64,000 nucleotides of DNA from Elmis aenea (taxonomy: Eukaryota; Arthropoda; Insecta; Coleoptera; Elmidae): contig OX393578.1 of assembly GCA_947652605.1 (NCBI GenBank), positions 40,925,470 to 40,989,469 of the forward strand, in the 5' to 3' direction. Below the pieces are notes generated by a model that ran no database searches, was not told the DNA's origin, and was given only the letters and a program-made list of their open reading frames with translations. Numbering within the stretch: the stretch's first letter is position 1; each line of letters starts with the position of its first letter. Below are positions 33,680 through 64,000 of this stretch, one piece after another. Position numbers and translations under genes: made by a program.

Positions 33680-33822
33680 TAAAAATGCATTTACACTATT
33701 AATTTAAAAAAAAAAACTTTAACCAACCTTTAACCTGACCCTCGTTCATTTGGTCAGTGGTAGAGGGACAGGTTAAACATTGGCTAAAACTTTTTTTAAA
33801 TACACCATGAAAATGCATTAGA
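33680..33822. repeat. palindromic element with TAACCTGACCCTC core
   Basis: The left arm (AAAAATGCATTT, run of A, TTTAACCTGACCCTC) is inverted on the right (GAGGGACAGGTTAAA, run of T, AAAATGCATT). The core TAACCTGACCCTC is the complement of GAGGGTCAGGTTA, the conserved motif of the minisatellite at 59.6-62.7 kb. It may be a small relative of that element. A short hairpin CTTACGCCT...AGGCGTAAG follows at about 33836. Confidence 0.55.
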
Positions 33823-48956: not shown

Positions 48957-51900
48957 AAAATGATCCTGGCAGTGTTCCTCCTGTTCTTGGGCACCATATA
49001 CGCGCTGCCTCAAGGTGCTCCCACTAAAGCTTGCCAGTCGATGCTGCCAAACCATGGAGGCATTGGTAGACAACAAGAACCTTCACCCTTTGGAGTTTTC
49101 GCTCAAAACAACGGTGGTGGTTACGTAGTCTCAATAAAATCAACAATAGGTTTGCCGTTCCAAGGATACATGCTGCAAGCCAGAACACTTAATGGATTAC
49201 CACTGGGCAATTTTGATTCGTTGCCATCAGGCACACATACAATTGATTGCGACCAAGTTGGTGACACAGTGACCCATAATCAGCCAGTGCAAAATAGTGA
49301 ATTGAACTTACAGTGGTACCCTCCTAGTGGATACGAAGGTCCTGTAGTATTCAAGTAAGTCGACTAATAGTATGATAAATTAGTTTTACTCGTTTTTATT
49401 TGAAACCAAAATAATCAAATGTTGACTTGAGAATAAGCGTTCTGTGCATATTTTTTTTGGGCAAAAGTTTTAGGCACTTGAATACTTTGGAGTAAAGAAA
49501 ACGATTTTTACAGCTGGTTTAGACCTCTTTCAAGATAAACTGAACTGTGACGCAGAAACCAAAACTCGTCCAAAGTGTTTATTTCTGCGCCGACTAGAAA
49601 CATCCGTCTAAATTTCAACCACCATGCCCTCTTTTTACGCATTTCACGGTTCACCTTATCGTGTAAGACCACTAAGATAATCTGCCGTATATTAAGCATT
49701 ATTGGTTTAAACAAGGTTTGCCAGACTGTACAATTTTTTCACCACACGAAAGAAAAGTGTGCAAAAATCAAAAATGGCTTGATTTTTTCCGTAATATAGA
49801 AATAAATAAATGTAAATTGTAGATTAGTCAATAGGTATTTTAAACCTCAACCTGACCTCTTTTAAATGTCATCGTTTCTAATTATCCTTCATTTTCTTAC
49901 TTTATTGTTTCGGGATTATCTGTTGTAACAACCATTTACCGTAAAGAAGCATAATATTTTTTATTCGAGGTGCTTGTATTTTAAATCGTACTATTTACAA
50001 CACATTTTTTAACTACTTTTTACGACAACCATTACGTTTCCTAATACTAAATATGAAATTTTTCTATTTATGCCTTAAAAACCACACCAGCACCTCAATT
50101 CGTTATAGCGACTCCTGCTAGTCAAGTGCTTACTTTTTATATCTATATTCTATAACAAGCTGTCGAAATTAATATCTTAACGATATACAGGGCGTTTCAG
50201 ACCACCCGTACTAGCACGTTCATTCGAAAATGCGACGTCTGACAAAGATGAAAAAAAATGTATGGCAAAAGTGCATATGTAGAACTTGACTGACGCTATA
50301 GCGGTTTTCGTGATTAAACCGGAAGTGACCAAATCCGGAAGTAACATAAAAACTTAAATAGAACCATCAGGTTTTTATTACATAATTAGAAAGATATTTG
50401 AAAAATAAACACTTTTTACTTAAAACATTTTTCGATTATCAGTATAGTTTGTAATCCTTTGGACCTAAATCATAAAACCTTATTTGCATGTAACGGAGTT
50501 CTGGACACCCCTGTTTTTCTTTAGGTCTGTATATAATTAAATGAAATTTTAGACATGATATGTGTAAAAACTCGTATATTTAAACATATGTACGCCATTG
50601 TTTCACTTCCGGTTTCGCCGGAAATGACCCTAAATTTGTTATTTCAAATGGAACACCCTGTACATATTTACATTTTTGGAAAGAGGAAGCGATTTTGGAT
50701 ACAACTGCACTATTTTGGTTAATTTTTATAACATCAAATAATTTTTGGAAGAAAATAGTTTTTTTAAATGAGTGAGTCATTTTTTTTTAACGAAATGGTA
50801 ATGGTACATTAACGAAAATAGTGCAGTTGTATTCCAAATTGCCTTCTCTTTCCAAAAATCTAAAAGTGGGCAGGGTGTTGAAATAACAAACTTAGGGTCA
50901 TTTCCGGCGACACCGGAAGTGAAACAATGGTGTACATGTGTTCAAATAATCTTTTTTTTTACACAGATCATATGTCTAAAATTTGATTTAATTAAATACA
51001 AAACTAAAGAAAAAAGAGGGTGTCCAGAACTCAGTTACATGCAAATAGGGTTTAAAATTTTGCAATGATTTAGGTCCAATGGATTACAAACTGTAGTACT
51101 AATAATAAAAAAAAAATTTAAGTAAAAAATTTATTTATTTATTTCTTTCTTTCTAACAGGGGCTAGCCCCTACTTACAAGAAAGTACATAATATTACAAG
51201 TAAGTACAATAAATTCCAACACACGGTCTTCTTACGCCCAATACAAAACTGTGACATTTTTACTACAAAAAAAGGTTATCATTAGCATGCAAAGTGGATA
51301 CCAACCTGTTCTTAAGTTTTACTAATGAACGGTTACAAAAAATATCAATAAAACCTGAAAAAATATTCGCTATTTGACAAATTCTATGCAGCGGTGATAG
51401 TTGCAGCATATTTGTACGGGATTTTCTTAAGTAAAAAACATCAACTGAACGACTGCTTAGACGAGGAACCAAAAACGAAATTTTGTTTAGAAAGTCTAAC
51501 GGAACGTATATTTTGTGATTAATAATTTTAAAGATAAATATGTAGTCGTTTATGCACCTTCGTCTTTCGAGGGACAAGACTTCACTTAATAATGCCTTAT
51601 ACGACTCTAAAAAGGGATAAATACCAGTTTTTTTGAACTTTAAATAACGTATGAATCTTTTTTGTACTGCCTCTAACTGACTTTTGTATATTTCATACTT
51701 AGGGTTCCATACAACCGATGCATACTCCATTTTAGTTCGAACTAAATAGTTATATAAAATATAAAAAGATTTTACTCTTTTGAAAGCAATAGTATTTCGT
51801 AATATAAACCCAAGTGACTTATATGCTGACTGTGTAATTGCATGAACGTGCTTAGCAAAGTTAAACTTTCGATCAAATGTTACACCTAAATCTTTAATTC

Positions 51901-54900
51901 ATGTTTTTTTAATTAATGGTACATTGTTAATTGTATAGTTATATACTACTGGTTTCGTCTGTGATAGGATACGGTAGAGCATTTAGTAACATTAAAATAC
52001 AATTTATTCTCAATGCTCCATTTTACGATGCTATCAATGTCATATTGAAGTCGTTCACAATCGGCAATTGTTTTTATTGGGTGCCAAATCTTAAGATAAT
52101 CAGCAAAAAGAGTATTTTTTGAATACTTTATAACTGACGGCAAGTCATTTATAAACAGTTTATAAAATGTTTATATATCAAATATCTTTCTAATTATTTA
52201 ATAAAAACCGCTATAGCGTCAGTTAATTCTGCATATGCACTTTTGTCATAAATTTTTTTCCGCATCTTTGTCAGACGTCGCATTTTTGAATAAAAGTGCT
52301 GCTACGCGTGGTCTGAAACACCCTGTATTCAAAAGTTAAACAAACAAAAATATAAAATGACGGAATACAATTGGCTGAACCGTAATATAAATAAAAGAAG
52401 TTTTTATAGTGTATTTATTTAAAAAACTATTTCTACCCCTTAATGGTGGAAGAGCACGGACCATAACTATAACTAACTCATTTAAAAACTATCGCTATCG
52501 TGAATAAAGTAGCAGATACGGTTGTAATTATCGCTTCTATTATTAATTATTCATCGACTTCCTCAAATTATCGTTCGTTTGTGTTTTCAGACAAATATAA
52601 ACGCGGTCCGTGGTTTTCCTGAGCAGTTTTTAATTAATAATCGAAATTTTAAATTGCAAAATTAAAAAGAGATTTATAATTTTTGTTTCGTTTTTAGTTC
52701 TAAACTTTATTTTTAACGGTTACTGAGTTTAAATAGATTCCCTAGCGAGATACAGATGTTTCTAATAGGTCTAGGTTTCCTGCCCTCCATGTCCAAATAA
52801 ATGTGAAAGGATGGATTATGATTATATAATTAGTTTTAATTTTAACACAACAATAACAAATGGTGTGATAAGTACCTACTTGCAAAATCTGAAATGAAAC
52901 ATTGCTATTTTTTTTAATCGAATCGCTTATCTCTTGTGTTCTAGGGAAAATTGAGTTATCAAAATTGGCCTTGATTTTTGAAATAATACAAACTTGTTAC
53001 GAAACAAAAGCAAACTACTTTCGATGATCGTTAATTTTGTTTTCACTGTATGGTTGGAAATTTCCACAAAAATTACAATGTCTAACATAGTTTGTTCCAG
53101 TTACATGCAATCAATAATAAAGAAACCAATGTCAATCGCCATTAACTTCTGCAATTTAACTTAAATTGTCCAATCAACTCTTTATACAAGAGAAGCCAAT
53201 TTTATTTATTTATTCCTTGTTACAGCGCAACTGTTGCGCAAGATTATTCCACCTTTTGGGTTGGAGTAGAATCGAGCGTTGTGCAAGTATCAAGACGTTC
53301 TGTCGATAATCTTCCACCTACATTTACAAGAAGACCCATTATAGCTACCACAACACCACCATATTACACACCTGAGCAAAAACGCACCGCTTTCAGAGCA
53401 AACGACCCGTTTTATAACGGATGTTATGAAAGCAAACTGTGCTTTGGTAATATCAATAACTGCGTCGAAGATAAAAACTGCGATTTCGCCCTTGCCATTA
53501 CCGTAACTGGGGATCAATATGTTTTCGAAATGAAAGGAGACAGTCAAGCAGCATGGGTTGGTATAGGCTTATCCGGTGATGGATCCATGGGCGACGATTC
53601 CGTTCTCGAGTGTGTAAAAGAAGGTGGAGTCGCCAGAGCATACATGTCTTACAATAATCCCCGACCAAACCTCTACACATCTCGCCTTCCTGATGTAAGT
53701 ATGATTTAGTCGCACCCCGCAGTTTGAAATAAACGCAAAACTTCGTTTTACAGCATCAAGCGGGCATTCAGTTATTAAATGGGAGCGTGATAGACGGTGG
53801 TCTTTATTGCAAAGTTAAACGGGATCCAGTGACTTCTGTAAACGGTGAAAAGTACGATCTCATTAACTCAAGATATTACATATTACTCGGGGCAGGAGAT
53901 TCAGTAAGAGGTAAGTGTATTTTTTAAATATATAGGCTGCCATGACATCAAAATGAAATGTTTTAATTGATCGATTCCAAAGAGCGATTGATTTGTACCT
54001 TTACGTGTACAGTGTATAGAACACCTGATGAAGAATTTAAATTGCCTTGATGTCTAATGCAGTGGTTCTTAAACCTGTGGGGCGCGTCCCATAGGGGTGG
54101 CGCGAAATATATAAAAGGGAGACTCAAAGAAAATTGGCAATCGAAAGCAAAATTATTTACTAAAACAACAATAGCAAAATACTCACTGAAAATGACAATA
54201 GTCACACCTACGATAGCTTTTTAGTGAGCCCAACAATTAGTGTTTCAGATATCAATGGATGTTTAAAATAGTGATTGCAAGACCGGTATACCGTGCAATT
54301 TTACAATACCGAAATACCGTCTCATTTGATGGTCTAATACCGGTATTCGGTATTATTATTTTTTTAAAATTTGATTTTTATTATTTTATAATTGCAGTCT
54401 GCCATAAATAAAAAAATAGCAATAAATGCAAAATACAAAATTGTGCCTCAAAATGATGTATTTAAGTTAATAAAAAGAGAGATGATATTATTAGAGGACG
54501 AAGGAATGTTGCACTATTAGAATATTTGTTGTCATTTCCAAGGCTTACTATTAAAAAATGTTGCAATAATTTCTCTTAACTTTATCAAAAATTCTTAATA
54601 ACTCGAAAATTATTGCAGATAGGTATAGGAAACGCTAATACAGATTGATGCAGAATGCAATTTTGCATTAGAAAATGAAAAAAAAGTTTGGGCATTGTAT
54701 ACGAAAAAAACGAGTTTTATTGGTCTGAAATTGTATTAAAAGAAAATTAAATTTTGGACACCCTGTAAGTAATGCATCGATTGCAAAAATTCTTCTATGC
54801 ATAGTCTAAATTTAAGCGTTTTCTTTTCAAAAATGGCGGCGATAGATAGTATTAGTATAGATAATAGTATAGATAATAGTATAGATAATAGTATAGATAA

Positions 54901-57900
54901 TAGTATAGATAATATAAGTATAGATAATATTAAGCATCACGATAAAAATCAAAAAATTTCAAAAAAGTCCAAAAATCTAAAAAACGACTGCAGGTATAGG
55001 GAATGCTATTAGTTGCTTTAAAATAACGTGTTAAATCCAAAAATGCAATAAAAAATAGACCATTGTATTTGAAATAAGAAAGTAGCCGTCAACTTCCGGT
55101 ATTTCCGGAAAGGTCGCCATCTTGAAAATATTTTCATTAAACAGATCATATGCCATTATAGTCATAACCAAAATTTCAGATCAATACCCTTTTTCATTCT
55201 TCATATATTTTTAATGCCCGGTTCCAATCAATTACCCTGTATATCTTCAGTTTTTTGTGTCCATATTTTTTTACATATGTAATTTTTTAAGTTTCTTTAT
55301 TTTATGTAAATTTGTGTTTTGACATTATACTTACTATATGTAGGTACATATGTGTAAAATGCATATATTGTATTTTCAAAATTAATACTTTAAAAAAAAA
55401 AAAGCAATATTGGTATTAATACCGGTATACCGGTATTACTTGCGAATAAATACCGAATACCGGTATAGTAATTTTGGTCCGGTATTGCAATCACTAGTTT
55501 AAAACACGTTGACTGTCCGATGAGCCAGATTTGGCTTATGACGCTCCACTTGCACATGTTTATGGCATATTTGACTCATTTGACAGATGTCAAACGTCAA
55601 ATGTAAACGTGAATATCAACATAAACGTGCTTTTATAGGTTCTGAAATGGTTATACGACGTAAAAAGACGGTTATCTAAAGTTTATTGAGCCAATATTTT
55701 GTCACATATGACTCTTGAAAGTCCTATGTACGTAATTCAAAAAACAGTTGAATATGTTGTTTAACTATGTGGGCACATTATCATGTGACGTCGGATTTAA
55801 AAAAATGCTTGGACAGTTAACGTTAGCAAAAAAAGAAACTAACAAAAATACCCTTTTTTTATATAACACATTCAGTCAGCGGACGGCTAAGAAATAAAAA
55901 CAAATACAGGTTTTTCTGCAGAACAAGAGGATTGAAAGTGGGGCGCAATAAAAATTTATAGAAAAAGGGGGGTGCAATAACTTTTGGTATAAATAAGGAG
56001 GGCGCAAATACGAAAAGGTTTAAAAATGCTGGTTTAATGTATAATTTGCTTGAGATGCAATAAAATTAGTTATCTCTTATCTATTTTTCTTAAGAAATCA
56101 TTTAAATGTCCATTTGTTCAAAGAAATAACTGTGATGTATGCACACAACACACCTAAAGCCGGATCCACATCAATAAAAATGTGCGTTGTGCGTTGTATT
56201 TGACACAATTTGCTCGTGTTCCTCGAAATTTTTGTTGGTGTGGACTGTGCGCCGCATAGAAATGCACACAAATAAATTCGTGACGAACAACGCACGCTAT
56301 CCATCGTGCTGTCGGTTTTTAGCCAACTTCAAAGAGATTTGCGTCGCACAGCAGTGTCAATGTGGACTTGATTTTGAGTGCATCTGTAGTTTTGTTTCAT
56401 TTTACTACGTAAATACCTATATTTGGGTGATTGATCATGTCTCATTTTTTAATGTACCTGTTCCTGTTCCAATAGTTTTTTTCCCTTTACCCTTCTCTCT
56501 GCTGAAAGACCCCAACAAGCTTGACATTTTTTTTTTTATTTCTTTTACTCCAAGACCACCACATGCTTCAGCTATTTTCTGCCACGCATCAGCTTTTTCG
56601 ATCTTATTATACCTAATGCTTACTGTGTTTGGGATTCCATAATAAGTTATGGTCTGCATACTCTTGAATAAGGTGCAATGAATCTTCATTACTCCACTCC
56701 ATTTTATAACAACAGGATCTCTAGCAGCAAACTGTTGCGCTCTGCATAAACAAACCTGCACAAGCGGATTCGGCCGTACAACACACAAGATAACTATTTA
56801 CGTAGTAAAATACTTAACCAGATTTAAATTTGCGCCGCAAATATTTTTGCTGAATTTCAAAATACAAAATACAACATACATTTTTATTGATGTGGATCCG
56901 GCTTAATGCGCGAACATAAACATATGAAAGAAAATTGACGAACGAACACGAATTAATACGAACGTGCAACCAGAATAAATAGTGATTTTGAACATTCTGG
57001 ACAATAAAATCGTATAATTTTACCGCTAAAACTATACTCAAAATACAGCAATTTCTAAAAGCAAATATAATAACATGGCACACATTCCTAGGAGTTTTAT
57101 TTTACCGGGTCTTCTTCGACGCTCAACATTGGCATCTCGCATATATCTTAAGACACGAAGTCAGTTTAAATTGCGGCAAACTAGTTTTTCATGGTATGTA
57201 ATATAAATTTAAAAAAAAATTAAGTGACATCAATCTATTTAGATTTTTTTGTGCTTTCTGTTAATGCAAAAACCCCATCTGACGCTTCCAAGAAATAACA
57301 AAGTTGATGATGGCTGAAAATAGAAGAAACGTCTAATACAAAATCTAAAAAAATCACCGTATAGGAAAGTTGATCTCTAAAAATAAAAGACATGACGCAG
57401 TAAATCTAAAAAAAAAAGTTTTTTTAATACAACTTTGAATTGAATTGAATACAAAATTTGCGCAGCTCTGCCTGGCTTTCGTAGCTTGTTACTTTTTTTC
57501 CCACTATTTGCCCAAGTTCCTCACTTAAATCGATTATTGCAACATCAATAACGTCATCGAAGTCCGCCATTTTTAGTTGAACACTGACATTATTTAAGTA
57601 CTTGCCGCTTTTAACTATCCCCGTGTAAGTACAAACTTTCCCGCTAAGCCTACATGCAGCGAGTACTAGCGGTCTGTAAACTAGCTCCGGCTTAAGATAA
57701 GCGAGATCCCCATATTGAGCCTCGAATTGATTGCCATAACTAAGTATTTTTATTGCATTAATTAAAATACTTGTCGAGTCGAAACTAAAATGCATAAACG
57801 CGTTTAGAAATGCAAATTATTTATCATATCAGTTAGCCTTGTAAATTAACACAATGCGTAAAGATATTTCTTGCTTGTACAACTTCCTCTACTTGAACTA

Positions 57901-60900
57901 AATGGTACATTATCGTCCACACCTGGCGCGATGGTATAAAAACTACAACTTATTTGATGTGCCTACAAGAAATGAATTGCGTTGGCCGATGGATGTATGT
58001 GATGTTCGTTCATGTTCGTCCATGTTAGTTGGTGTCGATCACACTTATTCATTCTTGTTCTTTCTTTAATGTATGTGTATGCTTGTTTTTTGTTTGTTAA
58101 GTGAAAACGCTATTATAACATAATTTTTACTTCACATATTTCGAACCATTTTCGTTGAATACGCTATTACTTTTTTGAGTAATATGTTTTCGCTGTGGTA
58201 GTAATTATTTATTTTGTAAAATGACATGCATACACTCTATCTTTTCTACAGTAAAATCAAAAAGTTAAGCGTTGCAAAAAAACTTTATAAATATAAAAAC
58301 TTTTCTGCTCACGTTTACGGAGTGTGTAGAAATGGAATGTTCTGTTGTATTAGCAGAAATTAATAATTTTTGAGATCACCTTAACAAACACTTCTCTTCA
58401 AGTTTATCAAAAATTTTAGGTAATGGTATTGGCATCCATACTTTGGGCAAAAGAGCAAGCGCCGAATCAAGATATTTATCAGACGTTTCTTCAATCGGCT
58501 TAAGTTTACTTTAACGGACTTTGTCAGAAATTGATAAAATTAAGTGGACTAATAAAACTGGACGTCCTGAGCTCAAATCTGTTAAAATTATTTGGCGCTC
58601 TCAATTACTTAGCGTAAAAACTCATTATAAAAGTTCCGTTTGACAGTTAGGTTAGGTTTTTTAATTCGAATTTTCTCATGTTAGGATGGCTAAATTGTCT
58701 GTGTAAAGTGTACAAATATGATTATAAGGCATACATGAAACTATATTTGTATTGATTTTGTGTTAAAATAAGCTAAAAATAACGTAAATCTTATAACATA
58801 CCCAAACTCACAACTGTCATTTTTTGCCGTCTTGAACTACTATTTTCACCTTTCTTGACCTTTCTGAGTCGTAAGGTGGACTCATTTAGATCTATAAGGA
58901 TCAGATCAGTTTCAGTTGGAACTAAAATTTTAATTTTAAGCGACCGTAAATTTATTTTTTTAACTTTTAACTTGTAATTTGAAAGTGGTAGTTAACAATG
59001 CTGGTTGATTAACTTTATTCGACTCTCTTGAATTTCTTTGAAAAAACACACTCATGAAACGTCATTTTCACAGACGTCATTTAATAAAATGAGGTTAATT
59101 AGAACATTACGAGGATAATCACAATGTATTTATGGCGAACGAAATTTGGTGGCCACATTAGTTTAAAAATTAAATAGTGTACAGCTGCACATCATCTTAT
59201 TCCAAATTTGTTTTATTGTAGCATTCCCCATTAATCTGCGTTAAAAACAAACTCTAACCAACCTCTAAGCTCACCCTCTGACCTCTGACGAAAGTAAACA
59301 GAATGCCGATGGAATAAAAGGATCTATAAGGATTAGATTAGTTTCAGTAGGAACTAATATTTCAATTTTAAGCGACCATAATTTTTTTCCATTAAATTTT
59401 AATTTTGTAGTGGTAGTTAATAATGCCGGTAGATTAACATTATTTGATTATCACGATAACTAAAGGAAGATCTAACACATCAGTTTTTGCCCAATAACCA
59501 ACTGTGAACTTATATCTTCGCAATAAAATAAAAAAATTTAGTTACAATAAATAATTTTCAGTCAAAATGTGGGCAATGGAAAAGCAGTAACTACAATATG
59601 TTATTTGGTAATGGGCAACACAATTTCATAGGCGGTGTGTTTACTTTCGTCAGAGGCTCAGGTTAGAGGTCGGTAAAAGATTTTTTTAAAGCTGAATAAT
59701 AGGGAACGCTAAAATAAAACCAGTTAGGAATAAAATGACATGCGCAACACTATTCTATTAACGTTCTGTTTATTTTAGTCAGAGGATAAGGTTAGAGGTC
59801 GGTAAAAGTTTTTTTTTTTTTAAAGATGAATATTGGGGAACGCTAAAATGAAACAATTTACGAATAGGATAACGTGCGCAACACTATTCTATCGACATTC
59901 TGTTTATTTTCGTCAGAGGGTCAGGTTAGAGGTCGGTAAACGTTTTTTTTTATAGCTGAATAATGAAGAACGCTAAAATGAAACAAGTTACGAATAAGAC
60001 GACGTGCGCAACACTATTCCTCCGACATTCTGTTTATTTTCGTTAGAGGGTCAGGTTAGAGATCGGTAAACGTTTTTTTTTTCAAAGCTGAATAATGAAG
60101 AACGCTAAAATGAAACAAGTTACGAATAAGATGACGTGCGCAACACTATTCCACCGACATTCCGTTTATTTTCGTAAGAGCATCAGGTTAGAGGTCGGTA
60201 AAAGTTTTTTTTTAAAGATTAATAGGGAACGCTAAAATGAAAATGACGTGCGCAATACTATTTCATTGGCATTCTGTTTATTTTCGTCAGAGGGTCAAGT
60301 TAGAAGTCGGTAAGAGTTTTTTTCTTAAAGCTAAATAATGGGTAACACTAAAATAAGATGACGTACAGCTGTGCGCAACACTATTTCATCGGCATTCTGT
60401 TTACTGTCATCAGGGGGTCAGGTTAGAGGACGGTAAGAGTTTTTTTTTTTAAGCTGAATGATGGGAAACGCTAAAATAAGATGACGTGCAGCTGTGCGCA
60501 ACACCATTCCATCGGCATTCTGTTAACTGTCATCAGAGGTTCAGGTTAGTCGGTAAAAGTTTTTTCTTTTTAAGCTGAATAATGGGGTACGCTAAAATAA
60601 GATGACGTGCAGCTGTGCGCAATACTATTTCATCGGAATTATGTTTACTTTCTTCAGAGGGTCAGGTTAGAGGTCAGTGAGTTTTTTTTTTAAAGCTAAA
60701 TAATAGGAAAAGCTAAAATAAGATGACGTGCAGCTGTGCGCAACACCATTCCATCGGCATTCTGTTTACTTTCATCAGAGGCAGGTTAGAGGTCGGTAAG
60801 AGTTTTTTTTTTAAAGCTGAATAATGGGGAACGCTAAAATAAGATGACGTGCAGCTGCGCAATACCATTCCATCGGCATTGTGTTTTCTTTCATCAGAGG

Positions 60901-63900
60901 GTCAGGTTAGAGGTCGGTAAGTTTTTTTTTAAAGCTGAATAATGGGGAACGCTAAAATAAGATGACGTGCAGCTGTGCGCAACACCATTCCATCGGCATT
61001 CTGTTTACTTTCATCAGGGTCAGGTTAGAGGTCGGTAAGGGTTTTTTTTTTAAGCTGAATAATGGGGAACGCTAAAATAAGATGACGTGCAGCTGTGCGC
61101 AACACCATTCCATCGGCATTCTATTTACTTTCATCAGAGGGTCAGGTTAGAGGTCGGTAAGGTTTTTTTTTTAAAGTTGAATAATGGGGAACGCTAAAAT
61201 AACATGACGTGCAGCTGTGCGCAACACCATTCCATCAGCATTCTGTTTACTTTCATCAGAGGGTCAGGTTAGAGGTCGGTAAGAGTTGTTTTTTAAAGCT
61301 GAATAATGGGGAACGTTAAAATAAGCTGACGTGCAGCTGTGCGCAACACCATTCCATCGGCATTCTGTTTACTTTCATCAGGGTCAGGTTAGAGGTCGGT
61401 AAGGTTTTTTTTTTAAAGTTGAATAATGGGGAACGCTAAAATAAAATGACGTGCAGCTGTGCGCATTACCATTCCATCGGCATTCTGTTTACTTTCATCA
61501 GAGGGTCAGGTTAGAGGTCGGTAAGGTTTTTTTTTTAAAGCTGAATAATGGGGAACGCTAAAATAAGATGACGTGCAGCTGTGCGCAACACCATTCCATC
61601 GGCATTCTGTTAACTTTCATCAGAGGCAGGTTAGAGGTCGGTAAAAGTTTTTTTTAAAGCTGAATAATGGGGAACGCTAAAATAAGATGACGTGCAGCTG
61701 CGCAATACCATTCCATCGGCATTCTGTTTACTTTCATCAGAGGGTCAGGTTAGAGGTCGGTAAGTTTTTTTTTAAAGCTGAATAATGGGGAACGCTAAAA
61801 TAAGATGACGTGCAGCTGTGCGCAACACCATTCCATCGGCATTTCTTTTACTTTCATCAGGGTCAGGTTAGAGGTCGGTAAGGTTTTTTTTTAAAGCTGA
61901 ATAATGGGGAACGCTAAAATAAGATGACGTGCAGCTGTGCGCAACACCATTCCATCGGCATTCTATTTACTTTCATCAGAGGGTCAGGTTAGAGGTCGGT
62001 AAGGTTTTTTTTTTAAAGCTGAATAATGGGGAACGCTAAAATAACATGTGCAGCTGTGCGCAACACCATTCCATCGGCATTCTGTTTACTTTCATCAGAG
62101 GGTCAGGTTAGAGGTCGGTAAGAGTTTTTTTTTTAAAGCTGAATAATGGGGAACGTTAAAATAAGCTGACGTGCAGCTGTGCGCAACACCATTCCATCGG
62201 CATTCTGTTTACTTTCATCAGGGTCAGGTTAGAGGTCGGTAAGGTTTTTTTTTTAAAGCTGAATAATGGGGAACGCTAAAATAAGATGACGTGCAGCTGT
62301 GCGCAACACCATTCCATCGGCATTCTGTTTACTTTCATCAGAGGGTCAGGTTAGAGGTCGGTAAGAGTTTTTTTTTAAAGCTGAATAATGGGGAACGCTA
62401 AAATAAGATGACGTGCAGCTGTGCGCAACACCATTCCATCGGCATTCTGTTTACTTTCATCAGACGGTCAGGTTAGAGGTCGGTAAGAGTTTTTTTTTTA
62501 AAGCTGAATAATGGGGAACGCTAAAATAAGATGATGTGCAGCTGTGCGCAACACCATTCCATCGGCATTCTGTTTACTTTCATCAGAGGCAGGTTAGAGG
62601 TCGATAAGAGTTTTTTTTTTTAAGCTGATTAATGGGGAACGCTAAAATAAGATGACGTGCCGCTGTGCGCAACACTTTTCCATCGGCATTGTGTTTTCTT
62701 TCATCAGAGGGTCAGATTATAGGTCGTGTAAGGTGTCGTAGACACGACAGTAGGTAAAATGTACAGAGTATGTGACAAGCAGAATAAAGTTATGTTAAAT
62801 CACGTTTATGTATTATTTGTTAAAGTAAGATACATAACAATGACGTAAACAGACGGCATTTCATTAAGAAAAATATACTCTAAACATACTTAAATTTATA
62901 AAAATTAGTTAAAGCAGCTTTCGAGAAAAATTTTCAAAACTTTTTAAATAATTTCGTAGTTTTAAATTTTTTCGAAAAGTTATTGAAGGTTTTTTATAGA
63001 CCTTAGTATAGACTACAATCCTACATGAACAAAGTATTTTTATCTATTAAGGTTTGTTTGTAATTTAGGATTACCGTTACAGCTTAAACACCTTGTATAT
63101 TAGTTAATACATATTTAAAAAAATAAATAAACGCACGCACTTTGTAATATAATCTCTCTATCGACAACTTATGTCAAAAATTTTCAATTTTAAAGTCTGA
63201 AACATACACACACGCGCGTACACAGTTGATTATTGGGTAAAAACTGAAGTGATAGAGCTTTAATGAAAGTGATAATCGAATCATACAAGTTAAAAGTTAA
63301 AAAAATAAATTTACGGTAGCTTAAAATTAAAATTTTAGGTCCAACTGAAACTGATCTGATCCTTATAGATCTATATGAGTCCACCTTACGACTCAGAAAG
63401 GTCAAGAAAGGTGAAAATAGTAGTTCAAGACGGCAAAAAATGACAGTTGTGAGTTTGGGTATGTTATAAGATTTACGTTATTTTTAGCTTATTTTAACAC
63501 AAAATCAATACAGATATAGTTTCATGTATGCCTTATAATCATATTTGTACACTTTACACAGACAATTTAGCCATCCTAACATGAGAAAATTCGAATTAAA
63601 AAACCTAACCTAACTGTCAAACGGAACTTTTATAATGAGTTTTTACGCTAAGTAATTGAGAGCGCCAAATAATTTTAACAGATTTGAGCTCAGGACGTCC
63701 AGTTTTATTAGTCCACTTAATTTTATCAATTTCTGACAAAGTCCGTTAAAGTAAACTTGTTCCCTTCAATCAATGAAAGATCCAAGCTTTTATTGCGGCT
63801 CCACGGTGCTTTCATGGTAGCCGCCTGGATCGCCACAGCATCTATAGGTACCCTCCTTGCTCGTTATTACAGGAAAACATGGGTTGGAAAAACGGTGTGC

Positions 63901-64000
63901 GGAAAAGACATGTGGTTTGCTGTACGTTGTTAATTCAAAAGATTTTCACCCCATTAACATGATTAATTTTTAGTGGCATCGTATGTTTATGGTCACCACG
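48957..64000 (+). CDS. FRRS1: ferric-chelate reductase 1-like protein (Reeler-DOMON-cytochrome b561), 3' end off window
   Basis: Coding exons: 48960-49354, 53226-53694, 53754-53910, 58420-58496 continued at 63772-63921 (split by a transposon), and 63974 onward. GT-AG junctions fit in phase 2, 0, 1 and 0. The start is Met at 48960, three bases after a TATTGCAG acceptor, and is followed by a signal peptide (about 1-16). The Reeler domain spans about 17-150, a Pro/Thr linker follows, DOMON spans about 215-335, and cytochrome b561 begins near 372 with histidines in RLHGAFM (about 377) and WHRMF (about 418). The family (vertebrate FRRS1/SDR2, Drosophila CG8399) comprises membrane haem proteins proposed to reduce ferric iron with electrons from the opposite face. 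Domain order is textbook; the remaining b561 helices lie beyond 64000. The transposon may disable this allele or be spliced out. Confidence 0.92.
48960..49354 (+). CDS. FRRS1: FRRS1-like coding exon 1: signal peptide and Reeler
   Basis: The exon begins MILAVFLLFLGTIYA, a hydrophobic signal, followed by a Reeler start (GAPTKACQSMLPNHGG) and the SGTHTIDC region. It ends phase 2 at donor TTCAA|GTAAGT. The upstream in-frame Met at 48912 lies before the acceptor and is not needed. Confidence 0.93.
51133..52165 (-). mobile_element. 5'-truncated non-LTR retrotransposon
   Basis: On the minus strand the reverse transcriptase region starts near 52143 with an FAD-type box (LFADYLKIWHPI; the usual second Asp is Tyr here), continues with KDLGVTFDRKFNFAKHV and MEYASVVWNPKYE, and ends at 51263. 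This is the C-terminal palm/thumb region of a jockey/CR1-like LINE. Only one stop (near 51900) separates the two open segments. The 3' end at about 51135 has AAAT-type repeats, typical of LINE tails. It sits in the right arm of the fold-back. Confidence 0.82.
51263..51730 (-). pseudogene. LINE reverse transcriptase C-terminal fragment
   Basis: A 155-codon frame starts at MEYASVVWNPKYEIYKSQLE, the LEY(C/A)S-x-VW motif after the thumb of jockey/CR1-type reverse transcriptases, followed by VQKRFIRYL. The catalytic palm lies upstream in a different open segment (51946-52143), and the 5' part is missing. It is therefore a dead insertion, though fairly young judging by how few lesions it has. Confidence 0.8.
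53226..53694 (+). CDS. FRRS1: FRRS1-like coding exon 2: Reeler end, linker, DOMON start
   Basis: It begins at acceptor TTACAG|CGCAAC, giving NATVAQDYSTFWVGVES, the last strand of the Reeler. It then has a Pro/Thr linker, a Cys-rich stretch (GCYESKLCFGNINNC) and DOMON strands (FALAITVTGDQYVFEMKGD, AAWVGIGLS). It ends in phase 0 at CTGAT|GTAAGT. Confidence 0.93.
53754..53910 (+). CDS. FRRS1: FRRS1-like coding exon 3: DOMON
   Basis: Acceptor TTTTACAG|CATCAAG; reads HQAGIQLLNGSVIDGGLYCK, then a RYYILLGAGDSV strand. It ends in phase 1 at AGAG|GTAAGT. The preceding intron is 59 bp. Confidence 0.92.
54269..55496. mobile_element. hAT-type element (inner of a nested pair), perfect duplication
   Basis: The ends TAGTGATTGCAAGACCGG and CCGGTATTGCAATCACTA are inverted repeats, flanked by identical octamers GTTTAAAA at 54261-54268 and 55497-55504. 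The arms contain repeated ATACCGGTAT. Two same-direction ACCCTGTA ends inside (near 54757 and 55247) suggest further nested debris. Confidence 0.9.
54840..54930 (+). repeat. 12-bp tandem repeat (ATAGTATAGATA)
   Basis: At least five near-perfect copies of a 12-bp unit, which reads SIDN in one frame. The open frame at 54797-55012 is explained by this repeat and is not a gene. Confidence 0.9.
56158..56903. mobile_element. PIF/Harbinger-type element with MADF-like ORF
   Basis: Inverted ends AGCCGGATCCACATCAATAA are flanked by TAA on both sides (56155-56157 and 56904-56906). The minus strand encodes part of a MADF/Myb-SANT-like protein, the second gene usual in this superfamily. The 746-bp element lacks the DDE transposase gene. 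Confidence 0.88.
56435..56705 (-). pseudogene. MADF/SANT-like Harbinger accessory ORF, frameshifted
   Basis: The first segment starts MEWSNEDSLHLIQEYADHNL and reads to a PKHSKH stretch, then stops. The second, one frame over, continues YNKIEKADAWQKIAEACG, then VKEIKKKMSSLLGSF. Together these resemble a MADF or Myb/SANT-like DNA-binding domain: acidic start, W in AWQKIA, and L-K/R helices. The stop/frameshift between them makes it inactive. The long overlapping plus-strand frame 56187-56642 is a shadow. Confidence 0.65.
57424..57795 (-). CDS. unrecognised 123-codon open frame in intron
   Basis: The frame runs Met to stop on the minus strand inside FRRS1-like intron 4. Its composition is richer in GC than the flanks. 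It contains YGDLAYLKPELVYRPLVLAA and a MADFDDVIDVAIIDLSEELG segment. No signal peptide, membrane helix or known motif was recognised. The sequence AAGCGAGATCCCCATATTGA within it resembles ends of the nearby fold-back families, and the region just downstream (57305-57375) is repeated at 41865-41935. A transposon-derived frame is therefore the likelier reading; a small nested gene is the alternative. Confidence 0.3.
   Translation of the reverse strand: MHFSFDSTSILINAIKILSYGNQFEAQYGDLAYLKPELVYRPLVLAACRLSGKVCTYTGIVKSGKYLNNVSVQLKMADFDDVIDVAIIDLSEELGQIVGKKVTSYESQAELRKFCIQFNSKLY
57796..58419. other. intron sequence, nothing recognised
   Basis: AT-rich sequence up to the acceptor AAAATTTTAG at 58419. 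Confidence 0.4.
58420..58496 (+). CDS. FRRS1: FRRS1-like coding exon 4, left part (before transposon)
   Basis: After acceptor AATTTTAG it reads GNGIGIHTLGKRASAESRYL, then SDVSSI, the link between DOMON and cytochrome b561. It keeps phase with exon 3 (split Gly codon). The coding sequence runs into a transposon after ATC at 58494-58496 and would stop at TAA six codons later (58512-58514 region) if read on. Confidence 0.85.
58489..58496 (+). repeat. target-site duplication, left copy (CTTCAATC)
   Basis: Identical to 63764-63771 on the other side of the element; it lies within codons for S-S-I. Confidence 0.85.
58497..58976 (+). repeat. left terminal inverted repeat (480 bp)
   Basis: Reverse complement of 63284-63763 with only scattered differences. 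It includes AAGTGGACTAATAAAACTGG and GATCTATA-GGATCAGATCAG. GT at 58504-58505 could act as a splice donor (see findings). Confidence 0.92.
59176..59325 (-). repeat. single inverted unit of the minisatellite
   Basis: Read on the minus strand it has the same order of motifs as the array (CATCGGCATTCTGTTTACTT, CAGAGG, then a T-run and AATGGGGAA). It points opposite to the other units and sits at the left edge of the array. Confidence 0.8.
59320..59455 (+). repeat. internal duplicate of TIR inner end
   Basis: It resembles 58896-59028 (GGATCTATAAGGATTAGATT, AGCGACCATAA, GTGGTAGTTAATAATGCCGG), a second, more diverged copy of the sequence at and just inside the left TIR boundary. Confidence 0.7.
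59636..62735 (+). repeat. minisatellite, about 25 units of 118-135 bp
   Basis: Each unit has GAATAATGGGGAACGCTAAA, then ATAAGATGACGTGCAGCTGT, GCGCAACACCATTCCATC, GGCATTCTGTTTACTTTCAT and CAGAGGGTCAGGTTAGAGGT, ending in a T-run. Units at the left (to about 60300) are about 130 bp and contain GAAACAAGTTACGAATAAG; those to the right are about 120 bp with CAGCTG added. A seven-unit block of about 841 bp (about 60770-61610) is repeated at about 61611-62450. Identity is high, so the array is young or kept homogeneous. Confidence 0.95.
62736..63283. other. unique sequence inside the transposon
   Basis: About 550 bp of AT-rich sequence between the array and the right TIR. No frame or motif was recognised; the frame at 63190-63405 overlaps the TIR and looks like chance. 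Confidence 0.5.
63284..63763 (-). repeat. right terminal inverted repeat (480 bp)
   Basis: Mirror of 58497-58976. AG at 63750-63751 (TTAAAG|TAAACTTG) and at 63740-63741 (ACAAAG|TCC) are possible splice acceptors. Confidence 0.92.
63764..63771 (+). repeat. target-site duplication, right copy (CTTCAATC)
   Basis: Identical to 58489-58496; it is followed in frame by the rest of the coding exon. Confidence 0.85.
63772..63921 (+). CDS. FRRS1: FRRS1-like coding exon 4, right part: start of cytochrome b561
   Basis: It reads NERSKLLLRLHGAFMVAAWI, then a TASIGTLLARYY helix end and WVGKTVCGKDMWFA. LLRLHGAFM with its histidine is the first haem-ligand helix motif of FRRS1-type cytochrome b561. It ends in phase 0 at TTTGCT|GTACGT. 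The frame equals that of the left part once the transposon and one duplication copy are taken out. Confidence 0.92.
63922..63973 (+). other. FRRS1-like intron 5 (52 bp)
   Basis: GTACGT to ATTTTTAG, phase 0, typical short insect intron. Confidence 0.85.
63974..64000 (+). CDS. FRRS1: FRRS1-like coding exon 5, cut by window end
   Basis: It reads WHRMFMVTT, matching the W/F-HR motif that carries the next haem-ligand histidine. It continues past the window. Confidence 0.85.

Follow-up and report, generated by a model that had tools for sequence, protein, structure and literature searches.

A Merlin-related transposon with long inverted termini interrupts a coding exon of a Reeler-DOMON-cytochrome b561 gene in the beetle Elmis aenea

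Introduction

Merlin elements have termini that start with GG, are flanked by duplications of 8 or 9 bp, possess inverted termini quoted at 24-462 bp and are on record as carrying tandem repeats inside some copies, as described in PMC8101967. Long inverted termini combined with internal tandem repeats are also typical of the foldback-type elements Tetris and Galileo of Drosophila, which are non-autonomous and of which some copies lack matching duplications (PMC4079207), Galileo being assigned to the P superfamily. Introners are DNA elements with a duplication and inverted termini inside coding sequence, and transposon-derived introns were recorded in 175 of the 3,325 eukaryotic genomes considered in PMC9860276. 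SOS splicing, as presented in PMC13247085, is a metazoan process which removes transposons from messages, is independent of the spliceosome, involves ligation by RTCB and employs a nuclease that is still unknown.

The gene considered in the current work belongs to the group of CG8399, SDR2 and ferric-chelate reductase 1 (FRRS1). In the survey of PMC10691727, no gene group other than the CG8399/SDR2 type is represented in every one of the nine insects studied; the protein of the fly acts as a ferric reductase in vitro while its in vivo roles are unknown, and electrons are proposed to pass from the b561 domain to the DOMON haem. The expression data given in PMC12218971 indicate that CG8399 transcripts are not enriched in the fly gut.

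Results

The window, by which we mean the whole analysed stretch of 64,000 nucleotides, is located on contig 3 of a 516.4-Mb Elmis aenea assembly (302 contigs) and carries the host gene on its + strand. The joined exon translation has its top matches in insects, none of which approaches identity; among the named ones beetles are nearest, with Ignelater luminosus (55%) ahead of Brassicogethes and others. The gene model, from which the insert described below and one octamer were left out and which was extended past the window with contig sequence (locus L029), comprises 8 exons that encode 607 residues, and its alignment with the Ignelater homologue P0002 extends from end to end at 61% identity. 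Exon 1 (48960-49354, counted from the first homologous ATG) encodes a signal peptide-like start and the Reeler domain (Pfam Reeler 1.1e-18, taken on the stop-to-stop frame) and is followed by the donor GTAAGT. The first part of the DOMON domain is encoded by exon 2 (53226-53694; Pfam DOMON 4.5e-9, GT-AG borders) and its second part by exon 3 (53754-53910; homologous to residues 291-341 of P0002), which as a fragment is under the Pfam DOMON cut-off with an E-value of 0.013. Exon 4 is present as two pieces: the left piece (58420-58496) contains the last part of DOMON, including the conserved His, and the linker, NGIGIHTLGKRASAESRYLSDVSSI, and was placed by tblastn to P0002 343-367 and backed by the alignment of 104 homologues, and the right piece (63772-63921) starts with NERSKLLLRLHG, encodes the first cytochrome b561 membrane segment with the first conserved His, is 72% identical to P0002 369-422 and is followed by the donor GTACGT. 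Exon 5 starts at 63974, reaches the end of the window at 64000 and extends to 64217 in continued coordinates, in which exons 6-8, located beyond the window, end at 66988.

Each of the seven introns is bordered by GT and AG and, the insert aside, the modelled exons contain neither a stop nor a frameshift. A protein search of the whole assembly returned seven candidates and seven matches, which all lie within the host gene and do not include the short left piece of exon 4, and found no second copy of the gene. Reeler, DOMON and cytochrome b561 thus occur in one protein, the former two recognised by Pfam and by full-length homologues and the latter by homology, which agrees with the family layout that a first-pass annotation, made from the sequence alone, had expected. 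Pfam does not report cytochrome b561 for the 50-residue right piece of exon 4, and the domain scores under the cut-off even in the Ignelater homologue (16.3 vs 23 bits); the b561 label therefore relies on the homologues and on PMC10691727.

The introns of the gene contain several further open frames on the - strand. Two of these, at 51263-51898 and 51946-52170 in intron 1, match no Pfam family and presumably resemble the reverse-transcriptase end of a non-LTR retrotransposon. In intron 3, the frame at 56435-56797 has a borderline match to the MADF DNA-binding family (E 2.4e-4, 21.8 bits vs a cut-off of 22), and the 130-aa frame at 57424-57816 matches no Pfam family over the cut-off and has no homologue at E 0.001 among 19 candidates.

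Exon 4 is interrupted by an insert of 5,267 bp spanning 58497-63763. The first-pass annotation had proposed a five-kb transposon within a coding exon, with the frame being open to the ATC that ends at 58496 and picking up again at 63772, and both positions were confirmed to the base. The octamer which it had noticed on both sides of the insert, CTTCAATC, is an exact duplication of 8 bp located at 58489-58496 (left copy, + strand) and 63764-63771 (right copy, + strand); when the 64-kb window was scanned, identical 8-mers at this spacing were found at 4 of 58,693 positions. Removal of the insert together with one octamer yields the link SDVSSI|NERSKLLLRLHG, which is gapless and for which 102 of 104 homologues have equal residue spacing, i.e. 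15 residues from the column of the SDV aspartate to the LHG histidine. The two exceptions are a fragment (P0090) and a sequence that is aberrant at the junction (P0091), and the alignment comprises 104 of 111 hits, seven distant ones (P0105-P0111) having been excluded. The anticipated continuity of the link is thereby upheld. An ordinary intron would predict neither a target duplication nor a gapless match to the homologues, which argues against reading the insert as such an intron. In-frame translation from exon 4 reads into the insert as GLSLL before meeting its first stop at 58512-58514, and the insertion point lies 20 residues after the conserved DOMON His and 11 before the first conserved b561 His.

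The insert is bounded by terminal inverted repeats of 480 bp, the length claimed for them originally, with 7 mismatches between the arms, three of which are at tip positions 3-5; the ungapped core comprises 475 bp with 4 mismatches. The left arm (58497-58976, + strand, tip GGCTTAAG) pairs with the right arm (63284-63763, - strand, tip GGAACAAG). Between them lie a left inner region (58977-59614, + strand) with one inverted array unit at approximately 59173-59316, a tandem array of about 25.5 copies of a 122-bp unit as delimited by Tandem Repeats Finder (59615-62734, + strand), which accounts for most of the insert, and a right inner region (62735-63283, + strand). The element in the window has no transposase gene, and all of its open frames are shorter than 100 aa. 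As folded RNA the array is not more stable than its shuffles (z 0.27), Rfam has no match anywhere in the window, and the inverted-repeat pattern gave 0 exact matches against viral contigs. Similarity to the core of the 122-bp unit (up to ~88% over 36-41 bp) recurs in inverted orientation in two short stretches at 33694-33797, some 25 kb from the insert, with no other part of the element nearby.

A search of the genome with the left terminus gave 480 candidate places, and all 40 that were scored are 99-100% identical over 475-484 bp. Fetching of 32 loci gave, with the window, a set of 33 copies, 21 of which have both ends within the fetched stretch and 12 one end. The insert in the window is a full-length copy, in which a left end of 1,118 bp and a right one of 1,029 bp enclose a 122-131-bp tandem array. 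The left end is common to the 21 two-ended copies (the 20 others at 97.4-98.9%), and the right end is contiguous over at least 1,024 bp in 17 others at 96.7-98.6% and broken in three, while the array varies in length from ~8 to 30 units. None of the 21 two-ended copies contains an open frame of more than 173 aa. The left tip reads GGCTT in all 21 and the right tip GGAAC in 19, differing in L009 and L037. Exact target-site duplications flank seven of the two-ended copies (8 bp in six, the window copy included, and 9 bp in one), two have an 8-mer with one mismatch, and the remaining 12 are without a duplication (L009, L012, L017, L018, L020, L023, L025, L027, L028, L034, L037 and L040). By analogy with other foldback-like families, the latter may have arisen by recombination between copies, and rearrangements are possible. 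When the flanks were joined for the 8 other copies whose duplication is exact or has a single mismatch, the frame across the junction was at most 85 aa, as compared to 94 aa for the window copy, so that no other insertion into an exon was found by this test, which is a weak one as several flanks are short (96-300 bp).

The tips of the element begin with 5'-GG and its window copy has an exact duplication of 8 bp, as is characteristic of Merlin (IS1016/IS1595-related) elements, and the one 9-bp duplication and the long inverted termini conform to this superfamily as well. The Pfam model DDE_Tnp_IS1595 matches 66 places in the genome (79 of 79 candidates scored). One of these, locus L051 on contig 4, has an intact frame of 317 aa (PF12762, 3e-18), and approximately 300 bp from this frame a sequence of 752 bp (L051:2650-3401), running to the edge of the fetched piece, is 96.7% identical to positions 62725-63470 of the window, and thus to the right inner region and part of the right arm. 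A search with the transposase gene and the right end together, in which 40 of 2,035 candidates were scored, returned five near-identical matches of full length, and one more that is split into two pieces. The comparison with the transposase-bearing copies covers their right end, inward of its outermost tip. Judged from these sequences, the insert is a non-autonomous Merlin element that shares its right end with transposase-bearing copies, and the latter look recently active. An assignment to hAT or P, which had been considered in view of the 8-bp duplication and the foldback shape, was dropped because the right end is common to a Merlin transposase copy. The original proposal of a transposon is therefore supported by the structure, the many genomic copies and the transposase-bearing partner.

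Other Merlin loci were also compared with the element: L048, L049, L050 and L052 have nothing in common with it at E 1e-4, and L047 shares array-like units alone, two of which (L047:2513-2724), downstream of a different Merlin transposase, are ~75% like the 122-bp unit. This unit may, as its sequence suggests, be an old Merlin feature. In L051, at 693-1336 and 1604-2325, the transposase region is situated beside a diverged, inverted second copy of itself (~71%) in the same element, and the other transposase-bearing copies likewise contain such a diverged inverted copy.

The element differs from described Merlin elements in that the window copy is without a transposase and consists mostly of a minisatellite array, and its termini slightly exceed the quoted length range, a length which is descriptive rather than diagnostic. 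It resembles Tetris and Galileo in its long inverted termini, internal tandem repeats, non-autonomous nature and copies without matching duplications, and differs from the foldback-type elements in having its array between the termini and a single inverted unit on the left side, and in that its transposase partner is Merlin, unlike Galileo with its P affiliation.

Regarding the age of the insertion, 15 substitutions in 2,161 compared columns are private to the window copy (7 in 1,122 among 21 copies and 8 in 1,039 among 18, U2 of L010, L015 and L021 having been left out as broken), and its terminal branch in a tree of 18 copies is 0.94%. Its left inner region has no relative closer than 98% among the 40 scored copies. 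These divergence figures, obtained with 40 of 480 or 558 candidates scored, are upper bounds on the age of the insertion; the private substitutions and the terminal branch place the window copy outside the youngest members of the family. In a gene that had been dead for a divergence of 0.7%, ~13 substitutions, 0.6 nonsense changes and ~1.9 indels (assuming 0.15 indels per substitution) would be expected; neither a nonsense change nor an indel was seen, which leans weakly to a younger or polymorphic insertion or to a gene in use.

Discussion

The insertion, its duplication and its kinship to Merlin are established. As to how it arose and what it does to the gene, the account that we consider probable is that of a Merlin element with long inverted termini and a minisatellite core which was pasted into the exon joining DOMON to cytochrome b561, mobilised in trans by, as we infer, a Merlin transposase encoded elsewhere in the genome. 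This insertion duplicated 8 bp of exon 4, and the outcome would be a truncating allele, probably recent and possibly polymorphic. The assembled haplotype would then carry a loss-of-function or truncating allele from which translation would run five codons into the element and stop, or the RNA of which would be degraded. The predicted product is a Reeler-DOMON protein of 371 residues (366 from the gene plus 5) devoid of the membrane part, and separation of DOMON from b561 is expected to abolish function. Unless the element leaves the RNA, the interrupted gene copy is likely to be broken. Of the two outcomes that the first-pass annotation envisaged, a broken allele and removal from the RNA, the former is the better bet because the sequence argues against an exact GT-AG removal of the insert. 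Since all other modelled exons are intact, the element was probably inserted recently and could be polymorphic.

That the insert would be an assembly artefact, or a somatic event in the sequenced individual, is scarcely credible. The 122-bp array is hard to assemble and its copy number may therefore be wrong, but a misjoin would not place an 8-bp duplication exactly at the tips of inverted termini, and the element shows the structure of its family from end to end and recurs elsewhere in the assembly. Removal by the spliceosome through cryptic sites near the tips, which would leave an altered in-frame linker and amount to an introner-like gain of an intron, is very unlikely. On paper, six combinations of donor and acceptor would keep the frame, donor 58485 with acceptor 63741 being one of them, and transposon-derived introns have precedents in the genomes cited above. 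Exact restoration of the exon, however, requires an intron of 5,275 bp that starts between 58489 and 58497, where the dinucleotides are CT, TT, TC, CA, AA, AT, TC, CG and GG, and exact removal by GT-AG splicing is excluded because none of these nine possible starts is a GT. Upstream of the first stop there are three in-frame GT sites, with scores of -1.7, -7.7 and -10.3 vs 3.7, 8.2 and 0.8 for the three real donors compared, figures which are a rough guide given that the donor and acceptor matrices are approximate; acceptor scores carry little weight, as the real acceptor at 58419 also scores poorly. Furthermore, the tips are those of the family in two-ended copies and hence give no sign of adaptation to splicing, and among animals and land plants PMC9860276 mentions introners in two groups only, both of them animals. 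The element shares with introners its duplication, inverted termini and position inside coding sequence but differs in having no convincing splice sites at its tips, and an introner identity was accordingly rejected, there being no exact GT and only weak in-frame donors by the approximate matrices.

Two further explanations concern the fate of the message and of the gene. The 480-nt termini could form a hairpin stem from which SOS splicing would excise the element, with ligation by RTCB healing the message, so that a more or less complete protein would be produced. We regard this as unlikely, even if several observations are in its favour: folding the two arms together pairs 475 of their 480 positions, 473 arm pairs are present in the minimum-energy structure predicted thermodynamically for the 5.5-kb stretch, the base of the stem is at the insertion site, and no other sign of decay is seen in the host gene. 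RTCB is encoded in the genome, with 5 matches at a single locus, as is a protein with a CAAP1 domain, with one match over the cut-off. CAAP1 and AKAP17A take part in SOS splicing. The presence of RTCB says little, however, since it also serves pre-tRNA and Xbp1 splicing (PMC13247085), no account of SOS splicing acting in insects or on an element of 5 kb came up in the sources consulted, and the absence of decay is equally expected for a recent or polymorphic insertion. Like the described SOS substrates, the element has inverted termini, is located in a coding exon and has a predicted RNA hairpin; for these substrates excision was seen in animal mRNA, whereas the element in the window is known from its DNA sequence and a predicted fold. 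The further proposition that the gene is still working, SOS splicing keeping an interrupted single-copy iron-reductase gene free of decay, is a model which we hold to be slightly less likely still. Permanent loss of the gene in the species or strain, with the insertion fixed, is also improbable, and a little more so than either of these. The sole copy found in the assembly is interrupted and the element copy is not the youngest, as a fixed loss would allow, but the intact GT-AG borders of all seven introns and the exons free of stops and frameshifts stand against it, and loss would be unusual for a group found in all nine insects of one study (PMC10691727).

With a recent truncating insertion as the preferred reading, the locus offers a natural case, clean and dateable, in which a DNA transposon with a long hairpin has entered a conserved coding exon of a single-copy gene whose other exons are intact. 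It also identifies, in a beetle genome, a Merlin family that comprises near-identical transposase-bearing copies and a high-copy, minisatellite-bearing partner. The case bears on whether a gene group with members in all nine surveyed insects (PMC10691727) can be lost, and on whether an insect removes transposons from its messages without the spliceosome; if excision by SOS splicing were true, it would be a natural germ-line example in an insect, acting on a 5-kb element.
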